A stretch of 43,006 bases of DNA, from the IMG/VR virus record IMGVR_UViG_3300005782_000008, positions 1 to 43,006 of that record. One strand, 5' to 3'. This DNA is from a virus. Shown piece after piece: positions 3,111 through 37,539 of the stretch. The translations under genes and the position numbers were made by a program. How positions within the stretch are numbered: the first letter of the stretch is position 1; every line of letters starts with the position of its first letter. The notes under the pieces were generated by a model. That model made no database searches and was not told where the DNA came from. It saw nothing but the letters and a program-made list of their open reading frames with translations.

Positions 3111-3139
3111 TTGACTCCCGCGCGGGCGCGTGGTAGGAT
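3111..3139 (+). promoter_or_regulatory. Sigma70-like promoter for the replication operon
   Basis: The -35 box TTGACT (3111-3116) and -10 box TAGGAT (3134-3139) are separated by 17 bases. The predicted start near 3146 coincides with the first base of a long-stemmed leader RNA. The architecture (weak G-containing -10, 17-base spacer) resembles the terminase promoter at 35053-35081. Confidence 0.65.
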
Positions 3140-3144
3140 GGGGG

Positions 3145-3271
3145 CGGTTGGTACAAGGTGGGAGTTCATGTACAAAGCAAACTGGGGCCTACGGAGCGAC
3201 ACGGTACGCGCGCAAGCCTGTGCCGTTTCCTCACCCGCCTGTACCAACCGGCGACGTAGGCCCTTTTCTTT
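3145..3271 (+). ncRNA. Structured leader RNA with interleaved stems, upstream of the initiator gene
   Basis: Three perfect or near-perfect stems are visible. Stem A pairs 3145-3155 (CGGTTGGTACA) with 3240-3250, and continues after a bulged A as GGTGGG 3157-3162 with CCCGCC 3234-3239. A hairpin pairs ACGGTAC 3201-3207 with GTGCCGT 3220-3226. Stem B pairs GGGCCTACG 3185-3193 with CGTAGGCCC 3255-3263, followed by TTTTCTTT. A and B are interleaved, so they form a pseudoknot or exclude each other. GTACA 3151-3155 can also pair locally with TGTAC 3169-3173. The RNA starts at the promoter's expected start site and ends about 12 bases before ATG 3283. It is probably an attenuator, riboswitch or replication-control RNA; no known class is recognised. 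Confidence 0.6.
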
Positions 3272-3282
3272 CGAGACATAAG

Positions 3283-4200
3283 ATGCCAACAATGCCTTGG
3301 GTAAAGTTCTATGTGACCGACTGGCGGGGAGATGAGGCCGTGCAGGAGATGCCCTTGCGCGGCCGGGGAGCCTGGATCGAAACCCTGTGCCTGATGTGGC
3401 GCAAGCAAACCCACCAGATTTCAAAGACGGTCCCGGATTGGGCGAAGCTCTGGCGCTGCTCACAGGAAGAAGCATTGGCCGCACTTGATGATTTTGCTGG
3501 ACAGCAGGTCTGCGAAATGACAGGGCTGTCACAGGCTTGTGACGGTGGCCGTGACGCATGGTGTGACACGCTGGTGACGGTGACTTGTAGGCGACTGGAG
3601 AAGGAACATAACCGCCGCGAAGCCACACGGTTACGCACCCAACAATGGCGCAAGGGCAAGCATGGTGACGCTGCGGTGATGCCTGATGTGACGCCCAAGA
3701 AACGCGTTGGTGACGCTTCAGGTGACGCCCCTTGTGACGGACAGAGTATTAGAATCTTAGAAGCTCAGAGTCTTAGAAACTCAGAAAACCAGAAACCAGA
3801 AACCCCGGAATTGCTTTCTTCGTCGAAGACTCCAAAGAAAGCGCGCAAACGGCCTCCCATGAAGACGAAAGCTCCTTCCGAGCACCGGAGCTTCATCGAA
3901 TGGTGGACAGCGAAGTACCTGGAGCTTCGCGGCGTCGCCTACGTGTTCGGCGGCGGCAAGGATGCTACGGCGGTCAAGGCGATCCTATCGAAGCTCGGGC
4001 TGGCCGAAGCACAGACACGCGGCGAACGCTATCTACGCGACGACGATGAGTTTGTCCAGAAGCAAGGGCACACGCTGGCGTTCTTCCAGTCCCGGCTGAA
4101 CGCCTACGCGAAAGAGCATAGGACCGCTGACGCGAAGAAGTACCGGCGTGGGGGCGCTGCGCTGGGCATGGAGAACCCGTTTTTGGAGGATGGGAAGTGA
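3283..4200 (+). CDS. Replication initiator / replisome organiser-like protein
   Basis: This protein has about 305 residues. The N-terminus MPTMPWVKFYVTDWRGDEAVQEM and GRGAWIETLCLMWR match the opening helix-turn-helix type module of phage replication proteins (DUF1376/replisome organiser-like). A long low-complexity linker follows (residues 120-200), then a C-terminal helical domain (SFIEWWTAKYLELRG...). A GTG at 3130 would extend the frame, but that extension lies within the promoter and structured leader; ATG 3283 (or 3292) fits the protein family. The DnaC-like loader downstream supports a role in origin melting and helicase loading. Its own coding DNA holds an iteron-like array, as in lambda O. 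No strong Shine-Dalgarno site precedes the start, so translation may depend on the leader. Confidence 0.65.
   Translation: MPTMPWVKFYVTDWRGDEAVQEMPLRGRGAWIETLCLMWRKQTHQISKTVPDWAKLWRCSQEEALAALDDFAGQQVCEMTGLSQACDGGRDAWCDTLVTVTCRRLEKEHNRREATRLRTQQWRKGKHGDAAVMPDVTPKKRVGDASGDAPCDGQSIRILEAQSLRNSENQKPETPELLSSSKTPKKARKRPPMKTKAPSEHRSFIEWWTAKYLELRGVAYVFGGGKDATAVKAILSKLGLAEAQTRGERYLRDDDEFVQKQGHTLAFFQSRLNAYAKEHRTADAKKYRRGGAALGMENPFLEDGK
3528..3738 (+). other. Iteron-like GTGAC array: candidate replication origin
   Basis: GTGAC occurs ten times in direct orientation at 3539, 3551, 3563, 3574, 3580, 3665, 3688, 3710, 3722 and 3734. Spacings are 12, 12, 11, 6, 85, 23, 22, 12 and 12, mostly one or two helical turns. 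One inverted copy at 3528 makes the dyad GTCACA-4-TGTGAC. The motif is read as Cys/Gly/Arg-Asp in some places and Val-Thr in others, so DNA-level conservation is suggested. It sits in the linker region of the initiator gene and is followed by an AT-richer tandem repeat, the usual order in iteron origins. Confidence 0.55.
3755..3786 (+). repeat. 16-bp tandem repeat, AT-richer (possible unwinding element)
   Basis: TCTTAGAAGCTCAGAG (3755-3770) is followed directly by TCTTAGAAACTCAGAA (3771-3786). They are flanked by AGTATTAGAA upstream and two ACCAGAA copies downstream. The strand is purine-rich and clearly AT-richer than its surroundings. Its place immediately after the GTGAC array fits a duplex-unwinding element. 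Confidence 0.6.
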
Positions 4201-12916: not shown

Positions 12917-13630
12917 TTAGCCTGTCGGAGGTCCGAGAACGTGTCTTCCCGCACGCCTCTTTTGGTCTGTTTCACGCCGTATTCGGGATTGGCGCTGCAA
13001 TTCGGCCCTGTTCTGCGCCAGCCCCCGCCATTCGGTCACTGTCTCCGGGTGCTTCCGACAGTAATACAGTGCCCAAGGCAGGATTGTTACCTCTACTCCA
13101 CGGTCCAGGCACAGCGGCTCCAGCCAGTCCGTGTTTTCGCCACCCAGAGTCAAGCGCTCATCGCAGCGTAAATCGGTGGGAGCAAACATGCCCGCTGCAA
13201 ACGCAAAGCAGCCTTCCGACACGCCCAAAGGTTCCGGCAAGTGCTTCCACGGCTCTCCCTCGGGTATGTCGTGCATCCACAGGATCGGGCATGTCACATA
13301 TTGTGAAGGATCGTACTCCGCAAGCTGATATTCCAGCCGGTACTTATTCGACAGGTCATCGGAATCCATCCAGCACCACACGTCCCCCTTGGCCTCGTCC
13401 ATCAGCACATTGCGACCGTGCATATGGCTACGGAACTTGTCGCCCCAAACAGGTCTGATACGTTCATCTTTCAGGGCCAGCGCTTTCACAAGCTCAATGG
13501 TTCTGTCGGTTGAGGCATCATCGTAGATAAGCAATTCGAAGTCGCGGTGAGTCTGGCGTAGGATGCTCTCAACTGCTGCCTCAACATACTTCTCCCGGTT
13601 ATACACCGGCATCAGCACAGATGCTTTCAC
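12917..13630 (-). CDS. GT2-family glycosyltransferase
   Basis: This 237-residue protein starts at GTG 13630 with AAAGGAGCGCCT, in a GTGA overlap with the gene upstream; a longer frame exists only by reading into that gene. It begins VKASVLMPVYNREKYVEAAVES, then YDDASTDRT and WCWMDSDD (DxD-type motif about 89-92), and GGENTDW later. It is a classic inverting GT-A family 2 enzyme. It is the last gene of the minus arm and forms a unit with a GT-B enzyme, a radical SAM enzyme and a pyruvyl transferase. Confidence 0.85.
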   Translation of the reverse strand: MKASVLMPVYNREKYVEAAVESILRQTHRDFELLIYDDASTDRTIELVKALALKDERIRPVWGDKFRSHMHGRNVLMDEAKGDVWCWMDSDDLSNKYRLEYQLAEYDPSQYVTCPILWMHDIPEGEPWKHLPEPLGVSEGCFAFAAGMFAPTDLRCDERLTLGGENTDWLEPLCLDRGVEVTILPWALYYCRKHPETVTEWRGLAQNRAELQRQSRIRRETDQKRRAGRHVLGPPTG

Positions 13631-14478
13631 AGGCGCTCCTTTATGGCTTGCAGAAGTACATCCAGCCGTTCGGTTACATCGTGGCATCGTACAGCCCGGC
13701 TGTATGCCGCGCGACCCGCTTCCTCCAGTGCGCCCTTGTTCGCCAGCAGCAGACATGCTCTGTTCACACAATCCGCTGCGTTCTTATAGTAGAATACTTC
13801 GCGGTCGGGAACAAACATTTCCGTTGTGTCATCACGTTCCATTGTCAACACCGGCACAGCACACATTGCAGCCTGAAAGAGCCGTGAACTCATGGAGCTT
13901 GTTGTGTCGGTCAAGTCAAGAGCCAAGTGAGCCAAGTTGTATGAGCGTATCAGTTCATCGCCGGAAACAAAGGCGCGATTGTCGGGGTGCTTGGTTGTCC
14001 AACCTTCTCCAACCGCCAACACTCGCACTCCACGCTCCCGCAGAGCCTCAACAGTAGCCCGTCGGGTCTTGATTCGCGGATGACTTCCCGTGCCGAGAAA
14101 CACACAATCATATTCTTTCGGAATATCCAGCGGCTTGAAGTATCGCTTGTCGGCATGGAGCGGCAGAAACAGCGTGCTTGGATATTCCTTATGTACTACT
14201 GCGCTCCATGTCGCATACAAGTCCGCAGCGTAGAATCGTTCCGGCAAGAAGCGGTCAGGTTCAGCAGAACCAATCACGACCATGAACTTACTGTTAGGGT
14301 TCACAACAGGAATAGTGGAACTGAAAATCCATATCTGGTCAACATCTTCGGGCGCTTCTTCCGGCCGCTTACATAAGACGGTTTCAATCTCCTCTCTCCG
14401 CAAGAGTTCTTCATAGAGTGTCCGAAGAATGCTATAGCTATTCCAATGGTAAGGATTGCATACGTAGGCTACCTTCAC
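13627..14478 (-). CDS. GT-B-like glycosyltransferase (CgeB/GT1-type C-terminal domain)
   Basis: The protein has 283 residues, beginning MKVAYVCNPYHWNSYSI. The C-terminal half has the GT1-like block SRLFQAAMCAVPVLTMERDDTTEMF and FYYKNAADCVNRACLLLAN, which binds nucleotide sugar in CgeB-like enzymes. DCVFLGTGSHPRIKTRRATVEAL fits the second Rossmann domain. It lies 3 bases after the radical SAM gene and overlaps the GT2 gene, so the products are probably made together. The sugar and acceptor are unknown. Confidence 0.75.
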   Translation of the reverse strand: MKVAYVCNPYHWNSYSILRTLYEELLRREEIETVLCKRPEEAPEDVDQIWIFSSTIPVVNPNSKFMVVIGSAEPDRFLPERFYAADLYATWSAVVHKEYPSTLFLPLHADKRYFKPLDIPKEYDCVFLGTGSHPRIKTRRATVEALRERGVRVLAVGEGWTTKHPDNRAFVSGDELIRSYNLAHLALDLTDTTSSMSSRLFQAAMCAVPVLTMERDDTTEMFVPDREVFYYKNAADCVNRACLLLANKGALEEAGRAAYSRAVRCHDVTERLDVLLQAIKERL

Positions 14479-14481
14479 AGG

Positions 14482-15759
14482 CTATCCCTTCGCGTTCTGT
14501 GGTAATGTCTCGGAATATGCGACCATCCGGGCAGTATTCTCCCATTGCTCTTCTTCTGTCATGCCATCTATCCGTAGCGGCGACCACAGTTGCTTACCCG
14601 CAGTCGAGTAGATGTAGAAATTGTACTTGCTCAGATCGCGGGACACAATCTCTACACCAAACTTCTCGGGATGCAACCATATCGGCGTACCCGGTAATGG
14701 CTTGAAGACCTTGATGCTCAAATACACGAACTCTTCCTTGAGTGCTTCCAGCGCAGCGATGTTCAAGTCAACTGTGCGCTTGTAGCTCTCGCCCGGCGTA
14801 GCAAGCATCATCAACACCCGAGCGCCTATGCCCGCTGCATGAGCATTGTGTATCGCCGCGACTGATTGCTCCGGGATGATTCGCTTGTTCAACTGCTTCA
14901 ACACTTTCGGATCAAAACTCTCTACGCCCAATCCGAGTTCTTTGCATCCTGCTTCCCGCATCATCTTGAGCACTTGTGGGTTCACAGAATCCACACGTAC
15001 AGAGAGTCGCCACGTTATGCCCAACGGCTTCACCAGTTCGCAGAACTTCTCATTCCATTCGCGATTGCCTGCAATATTATCGTCAGAGAACCGGAACACA
15101 GTCGTTCCGTATCTGTCCATGCACTCCTTGATTTCATCCACCACATCTTCAGGTGTCCGCCATCTTACTGCCCGCCCCCACATGAGGCGGCTCGCGCAGA
15201 ACGAGCAATTGAACGGGCAGCCACGCGATGCCATGATATTGATGCTCCCCTTGTGTTTCGTTGTCAGCACCCGGCCCCCAAGCCACGATAAGCCATCGCG
15301 GTCAGGACGCGGGAGTTTGTTCAGGTCTACTGTGTTGTCGCCCCGATACATGCCTTTCACGCCACCGCTTATCTGCCAGTCCTTCACGAAGTCTATGATG
15401 GTGTACTCGCCTTCGCCGATGAACACGGAATGCCAGCCGTGCTCCAGCACTTCCGGCTCTCCTGTTGCATGAGGCCCACCCACAATGAACACAGCATCAG
15501 GAAACCGCTGCTGCAACTCTTCGCGCATGTCCAGGACTGTCGCGTAGTCGAGCGAAGTGGCCGTGAAGCCGTACACATCGAACTCGTCCATCTCCTCAAC
15601 TGCTTCTTGAACAGACAGCGCGGAAGCATCCACAAGCTGTGCCTGCACATCGGGACAATTGCGCTTGAGCACAGCGGACAGGTACAGCAGACCCAAGGGC
15701 ACCTGCGTATGCTGCTCAATCAGATACGGCTGGCATGGGTTGATAAGGGCGAGCCTCAT
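14482..15759 (-). CDS. B12-binding-type radical SAM enzyme
   Basis: The protein has 425 residues from ATG 15759, which overlaps the stop of the gene before it; a GTG at 15768 is an alternative but lies too close to the ribosome site. Residues 1-130 resemble a B12-binding Rossmann domain (LALINPCQPYL, PLGLLYLSAVL, VGGPHATGEPEVL, FIGEGEYTI). The radical SAM cluster motif is CPFNCSFC (C181, C185, C188), followed by FRFSDDNIAGN and GLGVESFDPKVLKQLNK. This layout is that of B12-dependent methylases and related enzymes. In this cassette it may methylate or rearrange a sugar or its carrier; substrate unknown. Confidence 0.85.
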   Translation of the reverse strand: MRLALINPCQPYLIEQHTQVPLGLLYLSAVLKRNCPDVQAQLVDASALSVQEAVEEMDEFDVYGFTATSLDYATVLDMREELQQRFPDAVFIVGGPHATGEPEVLEHGWHSVFIGEGEYTIIDFVKDWQISGGVKGMYRGDNTVDLNKLPRPDRDGLSWLGGRVLTTKHKGSINIMASRGCPFNCSFCASRLMWGRAVRWRTPEDVVDEIKECMDRYGTTVFRFSDDNIAGNREWNEKFCELVKPLGITWRLSVRVDSVNPQVLKMMREAGCKELGLGVESFDPKVLKQLNKRIIPEQSVAAIHNAHAAGIGARVLMMLATPGESYKRTVDLNIAALEALKEEFVYLSIKVFKPLPGTPIWLHPEKFGVEIVSRDLSKYNFYIYSTAGKQLWSPLRIDGMTEEEQWENTARMVAYSETLPQNAKG

Positions 15760-16520
15760 AGCGGACACGCTCCCATCAGCCGGTCCAGGTCTATCTCGGG
15801 TTTCTCTGCGTAATCATGCAAGGCATCGTGCAGCGCCAACAGATCAGTTTCATGTGTTACCTGCACCGGCTCGTTCTGTGTCCTGTGAACGCCGGCGAAG
15901 TAATCCCGAAACTTGAATCCTTTGCCCATCACTTGGTCAGACAGTTCTATCCAGAGATTCGGCACGTCCAGAGCATCAGCCACAACCAGACCATGCAAGG
16001 TGCTGGATACAATCATCCGACAAGATGCCACTTCGTCCATGACGTGCTCAATGCCGCCCATGATGTCTATGATTTGCACGCCCCATATCCGGGACATCTC
16101 GGCCACCCAAGGATGATGCTGGTCAATGTAGTGAGGGACGACCCCGAGCACATGCGTCTTACGCGCCACCGGGGGGGAGTAGTAGCGCGGAGCAAGTAGC
16201 CCAGGGTCGCCAAATACCTTCGGACAGGAGTAACCCGATGCTACGACTTTCTCCCATGACAGCGGGCCGCGCACAGCGCATATCCGCTTCGGCCAGTGCT
16301 GGAGACGCCTCTCCTGTGCAATGAAGCCAGCGCCCCACACGATATGCGTAGGAGTCGCCCAGGAGAGGATGCTGCCGGTCACAATGTACGATGGGTCATC
16401 GTCCGTGCCGGGGCCATATTCAGGCCGCTTGCCGGTTATCTTCTCGATGAGCCAAGGCGTGAGGGCGTCGCCCCAGTTGAGCGCATAGGGAGTGTTGTAT
16501 CCGCACCATGTCGCATACAT
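15756..16520 (-). CDS. Polysaccharide pyruvyl transferase-like protein
   Basis: This 254-residue protein has the family's N-terminal NWGDALTPW (15-23), GSILSWATPTHIVWGAGF, CAVRGPLSWEKV, FGDPGLLAPRYY and the late SSTLHGLVVADAL (172-184). Enzymes of this family transfer pyruvate from PEP to a sugar as a ketal, giving acidic glycans. The ATG comes directly after the TAG of the small basic gene upstream, without its own strong ribosome site, so it probably depends on coupling. It suggests that the phage makes or alters a pyruvylated glycan on the virion or the host surface. Confidence 0.8.
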   Translation of the reverse strand: MYATWCGYNTPYALNWGDALTPWLIEKITGKRPEYGPGTDDDPSYIVTGSILSWATPTHIVWGAGFIAQERRLQHWPKRICAVRGPLSWEKVVASGYSCPKVFGDPGLLAPRYYSPPVARKTHVLGVVPHYIDQHHPWVAEMSRIWGVQIIDIMGGIEHVMDEVASCRMIVSSTLHGLVVADALDVPNLWIELSDQVMGKGFKFRDYFAGVHRTQNEPVQVTHETDLLALHDALHDYAEKPEIDLDRLMGACPL

Positions 16521-35052: not shown

Positions 35053-35081
35053 ACCCTACCACATGCCCCCGCCCCTGTCAA
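35053..35081 (-). promoter_or_regulatory. Sigma70-like promoter for the terminase operon
   Basis: On the minus strand, TTGACA (35081-35076) and TAGGGT (35058-35053) are 17 bases apart. The predicted start near 35046 gives a short leader to the terminase ATG at 35022. The G-containing -10 resembles the promoter at 3111 (TAGGAT). Confidence 0.55.
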
Positions 35082-35771: not shown

Positions 35772-35841
35772 TATGGGCATCGTGGCCGAAATCACTCCCT
35801 AATTACGAGAGCGCGAGGCAATCCAAATGAACAGACACAGG

Positions 35842-35914
35842 GATACGGGGTGCAGCCGCCGAACTGCCGGCAGACCTGCCGGAGCTTCGCGTTCTCTCAA
35901 GCTGCACCCCTATC
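35842..35914 (+). ncRNA. Structured leader before the first right-arm gene
   Basis: GATA (35842-35845) plus GGGGTGCAGC (35847-35856) pair with GCTGCACCCC (35901-35910) plus TATC (35911-35914), with one bulged C: a 14-bp closing stem. Inside it CCGGCA and TGCCGG (35867-35882) form a hairpin with loop GACC. The ribosome site AAGGAG follows 8 bases later. It may control translation of the first right-arm gene. No known RNA class is recognised. Confidence 0.5.
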
Positions 35915-35935
35915 ATAAGTGAAGGAGTAGAACCC

Positions 35936-36130
35936 GTGAAATTCTGTGAACGTTGTGGAATCGAGATCGCCACAAAAGACGGCGACAACCTGTGTACTGA
36001 TTGCGGCGAGGCAAAAGCGAACGGCAAGCGCTTGAACAGGCGCAAGCAGCGACAGGAACGGGAGGCAACTCTGCGCGACTTGGGACTCGTGAAAGTACAC
36101 GGTGCCCTTGGCGGCACCTACTGGGAGTAG
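35936..36130 (+). CDS. Small zinc-finger protein (LGGTYWE family)
   Basis: This 64-residue protein starts at GTG 35936 after AAGGAG. It has CERC and CTDC (a four-cysteine site in the first 23 residues), a basic middle (RLNRRKQRQERE), and ends DLGLVKVHGALGGTYWE. From memory, small phage proteins with this ending are common. It is the first gene of the right arm, so an early regulatory role is plausible, but function is unknown. Confidence 0.65.
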   Translation: MKFCERCGIEIATKDGDNLCTDCGEAKANGKRLNRRKQRQEREATLRDLGLVKVHGALGGTYWE

Positions 36131-36277: not shown

Positions 36278-36502
36278 ATGGAGAAGAACGTGGAACAAAT
36301 GACCGGGACCGAGTACATCGAAGGCTATGGGGATAATCCAGGAATGAACACTTGGTTGCGAAGTGCATCGAAAGCCGACATTACGAGATGGGCAAAACAA
36401 GTCGCCCCGCACATACGGCGAAGCGAAGGAATTTCCATCACTTCCGTCACCTCATTGATTCAGGCCGCGTTTGAGCGGGCTGCGCAGTTGCGGGCGCGGT
36501 AG
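36278..36502 (+). CDS. Small hypothetical protein
   Basis: This 74-residue protein starts at ATG 36278 with GGAAGGAG 8 bases upstream. The sequence GTEYIEGYGDNPGMNTWLRSASKADITRWAKQV is helical and ends in a basic, possibly DNA-binding helix (IQAAFERAAQLRAR). It is not recognised. Its TAG stop is the first three bases of the repeated hairpin module. Confidence 0.55.
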   Translation: MEKNVEQMTGTEYIEGYGDNPGMNTWLRSASKADITRWAKQVAPHIRRSEGISITSVTSLIQAAFERAAQLRAR

Positions 36503-36574
36503 CCCGTCCCTCCGGGCGTCCCTCCCTGGGGCGCCTCCAGGGGCGCGCTATACCAGCGCGCAATGAGGAAGGAG
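36500..36574 (+). repeat. Double-hairpin ribosome-site module, copy A (divergent)
   Basis: Begins TAGCCCGTCCCTCCGG like copies B and C, then diverges in sequence but keeps two hairpins: GGCGTCCC-5-GGGGCGCC (36515-36535) and GCGCGCT-5-AGCGCGC (36543-36561). It ends in AAGGAG (36569-36574) before the gene at 36583. Structure is kept while bases differ. Confidence 0.6.
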
Positions 36575-36582
36575 AATGAGAG

Positions 36583-36930
36583 ATGGAAAAGGCAATCACG
36601 GTAGATGCGGCAGAGGCGAGACGCTGTCGCAAGCGACGGGCAGAGGCGATAGACCGGCTCGCCTCGTGGGATCATGCGATCCTGTACGTGGATGCCGCGC
36701 GCGAAGTGGCGGAAGCGCTCGGCGCTTCGGCGGACTGCGTGCCAGTACGGCGCTTCACCGGCGAGCAACTCTACAGCGGCAAAGCGAATGACGGCGTAGA
36801 CGCTGCGGAACTCGCGCGCGCAATCTGCGACGCTCTTGAAGTGCCTTACGTCCACCAGCACGGACGTGGCTCGCAACTGCGGATGTGCATCACGGCATTG
36901 CGCGAGGAGGAGGCGAGCTACCGCAAGTAG
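36583..36930 (+). CDS. Hypothetical protein
   Basis: This 115-residue protein starts at ATG 36583 after GAAGGAGAATGAGAG. It is Ala/Arg-rich and mostly helical (EARRCRKRRAEAIDRLASWDHA, AAELARAICDALEVPYVHQ), with a basic N-terminal region. It is not recognised. Its TAG begins hairpin module B. Confidence 0.55.
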   Translation: MEKAITVDAAEARRCRKRRAEAIDRLASWDHAILYVDAAREVAEALGASADCVPVRRFTGEQLYSGKANDGVDAAELARAICDALEVPYVHQHGRGSQLRMCITALREEEASYRK

Positions 36931-37005
36931 CCCGTCCCTCCGGCGCTCGGCAGTCGCCGGGCGCTCAAGGGGCGCGCTGCGATACGCGGGGCGCAAGGGA
37001 AGGAG
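36928..37005 (+). repeat. Double-hairpin ribosome-site module, copy B
   Basis: A 78-base element nearly identical to copy C. Hairpin 1 is GCGCTCGGC, loop AGTC, GCCGGGCGC (36943-36964). Hairpin 2 pairs GCGCGCTGCG with CGCGGGGCGC (36972-36994) with one G-G mismatch. It ends in AAGGAG (37000-37005) before the gene at 37012. Confidence 0.8.
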
Positions 37006-37011
37006 AAAGAT

Positions 37012-37209
37012 ATGGCAGAACGAGAACAGTATGTTGCAACCTTGGTACATGTGGAGGAGAAGGTGTTGAGCGATGAAAGCGTTGTTCATGATGTGCACGT
37101 CACGCTGGACGATGACGAGCATATCACGTTCCACGCAATCAGCGCGGGTGCCGCGCGTGCGCTGGGATGCGCGCTCCGCACAGCAATTCGTAAGTGGACG
37201 TGCGATTGA
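37012..37209 (+). CDS. Small hypothetical protein
   Basis: This 65-residue protein starts at ATG 37012 with AAGGAGAAAGAT. It is beta-rich in its first part (EQYVATLVHVEEKVLSDE, VHDVHVTLDDDEHITFHAI), then a helix (SAGAARALGCALRTAIRKW). It is not recognised. Hairpin modules lie on both sides. Confidence 0.55.
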   Translation: MAEREQYVATLVHVEEKVLSDESVVHDVHVTLDDDEHITFHAISAGAARALGCALRTAIRKWTCD

Positions 37210-37213
37210 GTCG

Positions 37214-37290
37214 TAGCCCGTCCCTCCGGCGCTCGGCAGTCGCCGGGCGCTCAAGGGGCGCGCTGCGATACGCGGGGCGCAAGGAAGGAG
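37214..37290 (+). repeat. Double-hairpin ribosome-site module, copy C
   Basis: This 77-base copy matches copy B except for one missing base near the 3' end. Hairpins lie at 37229-37250 and 37258-37280, and AAGGAG at 37285-37290 serves the gene at 37300. The leading TAG is here not the stop of the gene before it (that stop is TGA 37207-37209), so the module was probably copied in from a place where TAG was the stop. Confidence 0.8.
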
Positions 37291-37299
37291 TACAGGGAT

Positions 37300-37539
37300 A
37301 TGACAGCAGAACAAATAGCGATTGAGAACGCGCGGGCGTTCCGGCGGCTGGTAGACGAGCTTGAGCGCAACGTGCCGGAGTTGCCAGAGCACAAGGAAGC
37401 GCGCAAGCGCGACCTCGCGGATATACTGGAGCGGCTCCACTGTTCCAAAGCCGGACAACCAGGGCACACCTACTGCGGCTCTTGCGAAACGCACCGAACG
37501 CCGCGCGTAGTGTGTGGTTGCCGTTTCGTTGCAAAGTAA
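37300..37539 (+). CDS. Small Cys-rich hypothetical protein
   Basis: This 79-residue protein starts at ATG 37300. An N-terminal helix (ENARAFRRLVDELERNVPEL) is followed by a cysteine-rich end (CSKAGQPGHTYCGSCETHR, VVCGC), which probably binds zinc. It is not recognised. Confidence 0.55.
   Translation: MTAEQIAIENARAFRRLVDELERNVPELPEHKEARKRDLADILERLHCSKAGQPGHTYCGSCETHRTPRVVCGCRFVAK

Follow-up and report, generated by a model that had tools for sequence, protein, structure and literature searches.

Two leader regions on the + strand of the analyzed DNA (hereafter the window, a 43,006-base virus record of an unclassified phage) are predicted to fold into RNAs of one architecture, in which a long stem A encloses an inner hairpin C and is crossed by another stem, B. 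These elements, E1 and E2, are best explained as cis-acting leader pseudoknots that would gate expression of the downstream gene through a coupled upstream ORF, with intrinsic termination in addition at E1. We assign this reading a probability of about 0.38; because the same shape recurs with a different sequence ahead of a second gene, the element probably does serve as a gene-control switch. The presence of E2, with the same topology, is new relative to the earlier observation of a single element (E1) in a sequence-only reading of this DNA.

E1 occupies positions 3145-3271 (+ strand), ahead of a presumed replication initiator gene. The features of this region are as follows:

3111..3139, + strand: sigma70-like promoter TTGACT-17-TAGGAT with TG ahead of the -10 box, found by promoter scan
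3145..3162, + strand: stem A, 5′ strand (CGGTTGGTACA, bulge A3156, GGTGGG)
3163..3183, + strand: joint J1, where the short ORF starts (ATG at 3168)
3168..3281, + strand: predicted short ORF of 37 codons (MYKANWGLRSDTVRAQACAVSSPACTNRRRRPFSFET), Shine-Dalgarno energy -7.5 kcal/mol
3184..3193, + strand: stem B, 5′ strand
3194..3232, + strand: hairpin C, with an 8-bp core (3201-3208/3219-3226)
3234..3250, + strand: stem A, 3′ strand
3251..3254, + strand: 4-nt joint GCGA, from A3′ to B3′
3255..3264, + strand: stem B, 3′ strand
3264..3271, + strand: U-tract TTTTCTTT after stem B
3283..4200, + strand: presumed replication initiator (MPTMPWVKFYVTDWRGD...), with a weak Shine-Dalgarno sequence of its own; an alternative ATG at 3292 is possible

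The anatomy described in the sequence-only reading was recovered. The promoter leads directly into the RNA, and from its position the transcript is expected to start near 3145-3147, i.e. at the first pairs of stem A. The 17-bp closing stem corresponds to stem A, whose outer part (3145-3155/3240-3250, 11 bp) was independently recovered as inverted repeat I1, and whose inner part past bulge A3156 (3157-3162/3234-3239, 6 bp with one wobble) carries the Shine-Dalgarno sequence of the short ORF. The 9-bp stem B was likewise found (3185-3193/3255-3263; 10 bp with the G3184-U3264 wobble), and it crosses A, which encloses the 5′ strand of B but not the 3′ strand. An inner hairpin is present as well, its core being 8 bp and thus slightly longer than the 7 bp proposed. 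In the MFE fold hairpin C gains two pairs inside the core and five at its base; judging from the lengths, A and B could form together only if these basal pairs opened. The nested MFE fold of E1 contains A and C (z = -2.98; 2 of 200 shuffles were equally good).

Stem B does end in TTTTCTTT, as had been noticed, and together they form an intrinsic-terminator signature with a structured loop of 61 nt. Comparable 8-mers (beginning with TTTT and containing at least seven T) have only eight start sites on the + strand of the window. The initiator ATG (3283) is situated 20 nt past B, and the earlier statement that it lacks a strong ribosome site agrees with its Shine-Dalgarno energy of -3.0 kcal/mol.

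E2 (35806-35910, + strand) is the best-scoring crossing pair in the window and lies ahead of a small zinc-ribbon gene:

35806..35819, + strand: stem A, 5′ strand, containing GAGG (Shine-Dalgarno sequence of the E2 short ORF)
35827..35922, + strand: predicted short ORF of 31 codons (MNRHRDTGCSRRTAGRPAGASRSLKLHPYHK), Shine-Dalgarno energy -5.9
35847..35856, + strand: stem B, 5′ strand (GGGGTGCAGC), fully paired over 10 bp
35867..35882, + strand: inner hairpin C, CCGGCA-GACC-TGCCGG
35884..35896, + strand: stem A, 3′ strand
35897-35900, + strand: 4-nt joint TCAA
35901..35910, + strand: stem B, 3′ strand (GCTGCACCCC), with no U-tract after it
35936..36130, + strand: small gene behind E2 for a zinc-ribbon-like protein of 64 aa

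Stem A of E2 pairs 35807-35819 with 35884-35896 (13 bp), and the E2 fold has a z of -3.89. The strand order, the 4-nt joint between A3′ and B3′ and the inner hairpin are common to both elements; the first joint is 21 nt in E1 and 27 nt in E2. Because the stem sequences are wholly different, with no shared 10-base seed, the common feature appears to be base pairing and not sequence. A GC-rich stem with a U-tract directly after it is found at E1 and not at E2, and no clear promoter was found directly ahead of E2. The zinc-ribbon-like gene has relatives in other phages.

A promoter-like sequence, TTGACA-17-TAGGGT (35053-35081, - strand), precedes the minus-strand late genes and resembles the E1 promoter; GTGG before TAGGRT is common to the E1 promoter and the 35081-35053 promoter. 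A 13-mer, CACTCCCTAATTA, that precedes E2 also occurs in a related phage, but was rejected as a shared signal because in the latter it belongs to an intergenic motif that this phage repeats. In the related phage contig CTCCCTAATTA occurs five times on one strand (L004 817-827 and 1710-1720; G002:C1 85556-94308), and the two copies that were read are intergenic and adjoin both a CCTCTAATTGAGG hairpin and TTGTACTAAT. This arrangement looks like a promoter or terminator module belonging to the related phage.

Both elements enclose a short ORF in the same manner: its ATG is located in the A5′-B5′ joint, its Shine-Dalgarno sequence in stem A and its stop codon near the next start, and the frame traverses B5′, C, A3′ and B3′. 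The stop of the E1 ORF (3279-3281) is one base ahead of the initiator ATG at 3283, and that of the E2 ORF is directly ahead of AGGAG, the Shine-Dalgarno sequence of the zinc-ribbon gene. The anti-Shine-Dalgarno energies are -7.5 (E1) and -5.9 (E2) for the short ORFs, compared with -3.0 (initiator) and -8.3 (zinc-ribbon gene) for the genes behind them. With ATG as the only start codon, the ORF arrangement was retained in 0.6% (E1) and 3.7% (E2) of leader shuffles, and with looser settings in 4% and 9%, respectively, the thresholds of this test having also been set after the elements were seen. The two predicted peptides are unlike each other, and both short ORFs are treated here as putative, not proven, coding frames.

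The gene behind E1 encodes a protein of 305 aa; relatives of its N-terminus (PWVKFYVTDWRGD) occur in phages and prophages, and a DnaC-like helicase loader (E = 5e-22) is encoded shortly downstream. These two features make the label of replication initiator, given in the sequence-only reading, likely but not proven, the match to a PHROG primosomal protein being weak (E = 0.03). Short direct repeats (TTAGAA, CTCAGA) at 3742-3793 (+ strand), inside the presumed initiator gene, recall the iterons within lambda gene O and, by this analogy, are a possible candidate origin of replication.

The stems, their recurrence in two copies, the U-tract and the ORFs with their spacing are present in the DNA; from these we infer stem formation, ORF translation, coupling and a switch with OFF and ON states. 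In the OFF state stem A would hide the ribosome site of the short ORF. With A and B formed, the ORF would be little translated, and few ribosomes would arrive at the downstream start, which is very close to the short-ORF stop. At E1 this start by itself is almost devoid of a ribosome site, and stem B with its U-tract would also end part of the transcripts ahead of the initiator gene. The ON state would arise when a ribosome loads before the 3′ strand of A is made, or when something opens A; the loaded ribosome would then read through the whole element, disrupt B and deliver ribosomes to the downstream gene.

When the E1 MFE fold was followed in transcription order, A was unformed before A3′ emerged and closed once 3234-3250 had been made, so there would be an interval for ribosome loading on the short ORF. 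Rough sums of energies favor the pseudoknot over the nested fold by about 7 kcal/mol in E1 (about -60.8 vs -54.0) and 10 kcal/mol in E2 (-54.4 vs -44.0). The pseudoknot penalty applied was 9.6 kcal/mol, as in the Dirks-Pierce model. We favor the gate because the same topology occurs twice in one genome, in both cases in a coding-strand leader, and because the ribosome sites of the short ORFs exceed that of the initiator in strength. A shared gate with an added terminator at E1 is preferred since a U-tract follows B at E1 and none does at E2; the parts of the model concerning termination and a missing ribosome site apply to E1 only, as E2 has no U-tract and its gene has a good site. Counted against the gate are the lack of an independent homologue among the relatives sampled, the dissimilarity of the short-ORF peptides and the lack of a clear promoter directly ahead of E2.

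Initiator leaders with a pseudoknot and a coupled leader ORF are known from plasmids, i.e. IncI-alpha ColIb-P9 (repY/repZ), IncB and IncL/M (repA) (works cited in PMC10724649). In logic, the repY/repZ-type leaders may be the closest counterpart of E1, as an analogy and not as a class assignment. As in the outline of the plasmid system used here, the loop side of an upstream stem may pair with sequence just ahead of the initiator start (the 3′ strand of E1 stem B is 20 nt upstream of it), and the short leader ORF ends at the initiator start. Compared with the same outline, E1 differs in that its short ORF begins inside the loop of stem A and spans the whole pseudoknot, and the phage setting differs, as does the second copy, E2, ahead of a non-initiator gene. 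The likeness to plasmid pseudoknots or to an attenuator, raised in the sequence-only reading, holds with respect to the predicted crossing-stem leader, the terminator-like B and the putatively coupled ORF (3168-3281), but not for a purely initiator-specific device, since E2 precedes another gene.

Scans were performed with a strict definition (upper energy limits of -20 kcal/mol for both A and B and of -12 kcal/mol for C; a joint of 2-6, a first joint of 15-40 and a span of at most 140), which was fixed after E1 and E2 had been seen, so that the resulting counts overstate significance. Within the window exactly E1 and E2 were returned, both on the + strand and none on the other, and 100 dinucleotide-shuffled whole windows yielded 0 matches. 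In a scan for any crossing helix pairs E1 was among the better ones in the window, not alone. With a looser score, the best element of 3 of 30 shuffled windows was better than E1, which is therefore only moderately unusual by this measure, and shuffled windows score about as well once the thresholds are loosened. The background sample comprised 80 loci around PAPS-reductase relatives. Both stems were that strong in none of the matches listed for 787 kb of other phage loci, and 372 kb of loci with a GC content of at least 0.54 contained three strict matches, all in two loci (GC 0.65-0.69). Separate support beyond these counts comes from the leader position of both elements and from the promoter and U-tract of E1, which are in register.

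Rfam contained no family matching E1 or E2 at the gathering threshold, so the Infernal/Rfam covariance check proposed in the sequence-only reading found no match; at a permissive threshold there were two sub-threshold matches, which scored 13-15 bits where 39 and 80 are required. The strict element was absent from the leaders of 98 initiator relatives, several of which have coding DNA upstream, and from those of 21 zinc-ribbon relatives. Exact-peptide searches with the initiator and the helicase loader gave no relatives, and the search with the terminase gave only a sibling contig, which carries E2 and is identical, without variation, over the two stretches compared. An 18-base piece of E1 had no match in viral_contigs, and the E1 and E2 leaders had no real match in the phage collection. 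Among the sequences sampled, the element appears to be confined to the lineage of this phage. As the sampled relatives are without the element and the sibling contig is identical, the criterion of the sequence-only reading, covariation in related phages, counts neither for nor against it. Antisense matches to E1 or E2 elsewhere in the window did not exceed 10-11-mers in the seed listing, and no minus-strand promoter in or near the E1 leader was listed by the general promoter scan.

Fortuitous crossing complementarity in GC-rich DNA is an unlikely origin of E1 and E2. The scores of shuffled windows under loose thresholds, the three strict matches in the GC-rich loci and the absence of conservation from every relative found would fit this explanation, but the strict definition gave 0 of 100 shuffles, both matches fall in leaders on the coding strand, E1 additionally has its in-register promoter and U-tract, and the z of E2 is low. 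Next in rank after the translational gate, and plausible enough to be kept in view as a minority reading, is that E1 is mainly a transcription attenuator, in which B is the terminator, A or a ligand or protein decides whether it forms, the ORF plays no part and E2 is a device of another kind. A stem of 9-10 bp, GC-rich and followed at once by TTTTCTTT, which is rare in this genome, is what an attenuator would require, and A precedes B in transcription-order folding. However, A and B have no bases in common, so that one does not simply replace the other; the loop would be exceptionally long for a terminator, and E2 has the same topology without a U-tract. A protein-bound autoregulatory operator, i.e. 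a pseudoknot recognized by a phage replication or RNA-binding protein that represses its own gene or both genes, is unlikely, although one shape without common sequence in two leaders would suit it. T4 gp32 recognizes such a pseudoknot in a 5′ leader (PMC535899), and the leader of a phage replication gene is also the setting of E1. The T4 gene 32 operator consists of a pseudoknot of about 28 nt, behind which the ribosome site lies in a UUAAA-containing stretch of weaker structure (PMC535899), whereas the element here is about 120 nt long and no UUAAA/UAAA repeats were found between 3264 and 3292.

It is improbable that E1 and E2 are processive antitermination RNAs acting on the RNA polymerase that made them, like the two put RNAs of HK022, which do so downstream of the early promoters. 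HK022 has putL and putR (PMC9378689), and here too two structured leader RNAs occur in one phage genome, one of them (E1) directly at a promoter. Put RNAs, however, are about 70 nt long, similar in sequence and composed of two stem-loops, with no pseudoknot mentioned in the source consulted (PMC9378689); E1 and E2 are longer, have crossing stems and are unlike in sequence, and E1 is terminator-like at its own end. Very improbable is a self-cleaving HDV-like ribozyme, with A as P1, B as P2 and C as P3, perhaps minimal and theta-like, without P4. The elements share with HDV/theta ribozymes the strand order 1-2-3-3′-1′-2′ and a short C-containing joint before the last strand (GCGA and TCAA are both NCRA, with the C as in the J4/2 joint). 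Minimal HDV-like ribozymes, including theta, lack P4, and such drzs occur in Caudoviricetes (PMC10879173); J1/2 may also be long (PMC11331408), which weakens the long-joint argument by which the sequence-only reading had set E1 apart from this class. An HDV-like fold is not supported all the same. A descriptor drawn from general knowledge (7-bp P1, P3 directly 5′ of the P1 3′ strand, P2 and a C-containing J4/2) could not be placed on the + strand of E1 or E2, with loose placements only on E2 antisense. Unlike in HDV/theta ribozymes, stem A is 17 bp (E1) or 13 bp (E2) and there is no adjacent 3-bp P3; were the strands arranged as in HDV, a 4-nt joint would be too short to bridge A and the B/C junction. 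There was no Rfam match, and no tRNA was found in the window.

E1 and E2 might tentatively be regarded as a new kind of phage leader RNA, defined by shape and not by sequence and present in two leaders of one genome. In such an RNA, A and B would interlock as a pseudoknot around a short ORF, the outer joint would measure 4 nt, and the element would set downstream expression. Leader pseudoknots whose stem sequences differ from phage to phage would escape covariance libraries; a genome that carries one shape twice provides its own control even where homologues are lacking, and viral collections could be searched with the strand-order scan. If the coupled-ORF model is true, plasmid-type initiator control would extend to a phage replication module.

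Other features of the window were also recorded. An intergenic module, TAGCCCGTCCCTCC...GGAAGGAG, is present in three copies between small genes (36500-36585, 36928-37014 and 37213-37302, + strand), two of which are 98.7% identical over 79 bases. All three copies have a closed hairpin and a second hairpin just ahead of a ribosome site; the first copy differs in sequence and has the same predicted fold, which hints at compensatory change. In a DUF7666 protein (1623-2303, + strand), a tandem array of 9/21/30 bp (2026-2242) codes for a long run of alanine-rich repeats. Frames at 12917-16520 (- strand) resemble, judged by eye only, glycosyltransferases and a B12-binding radical-SAM-like protein.
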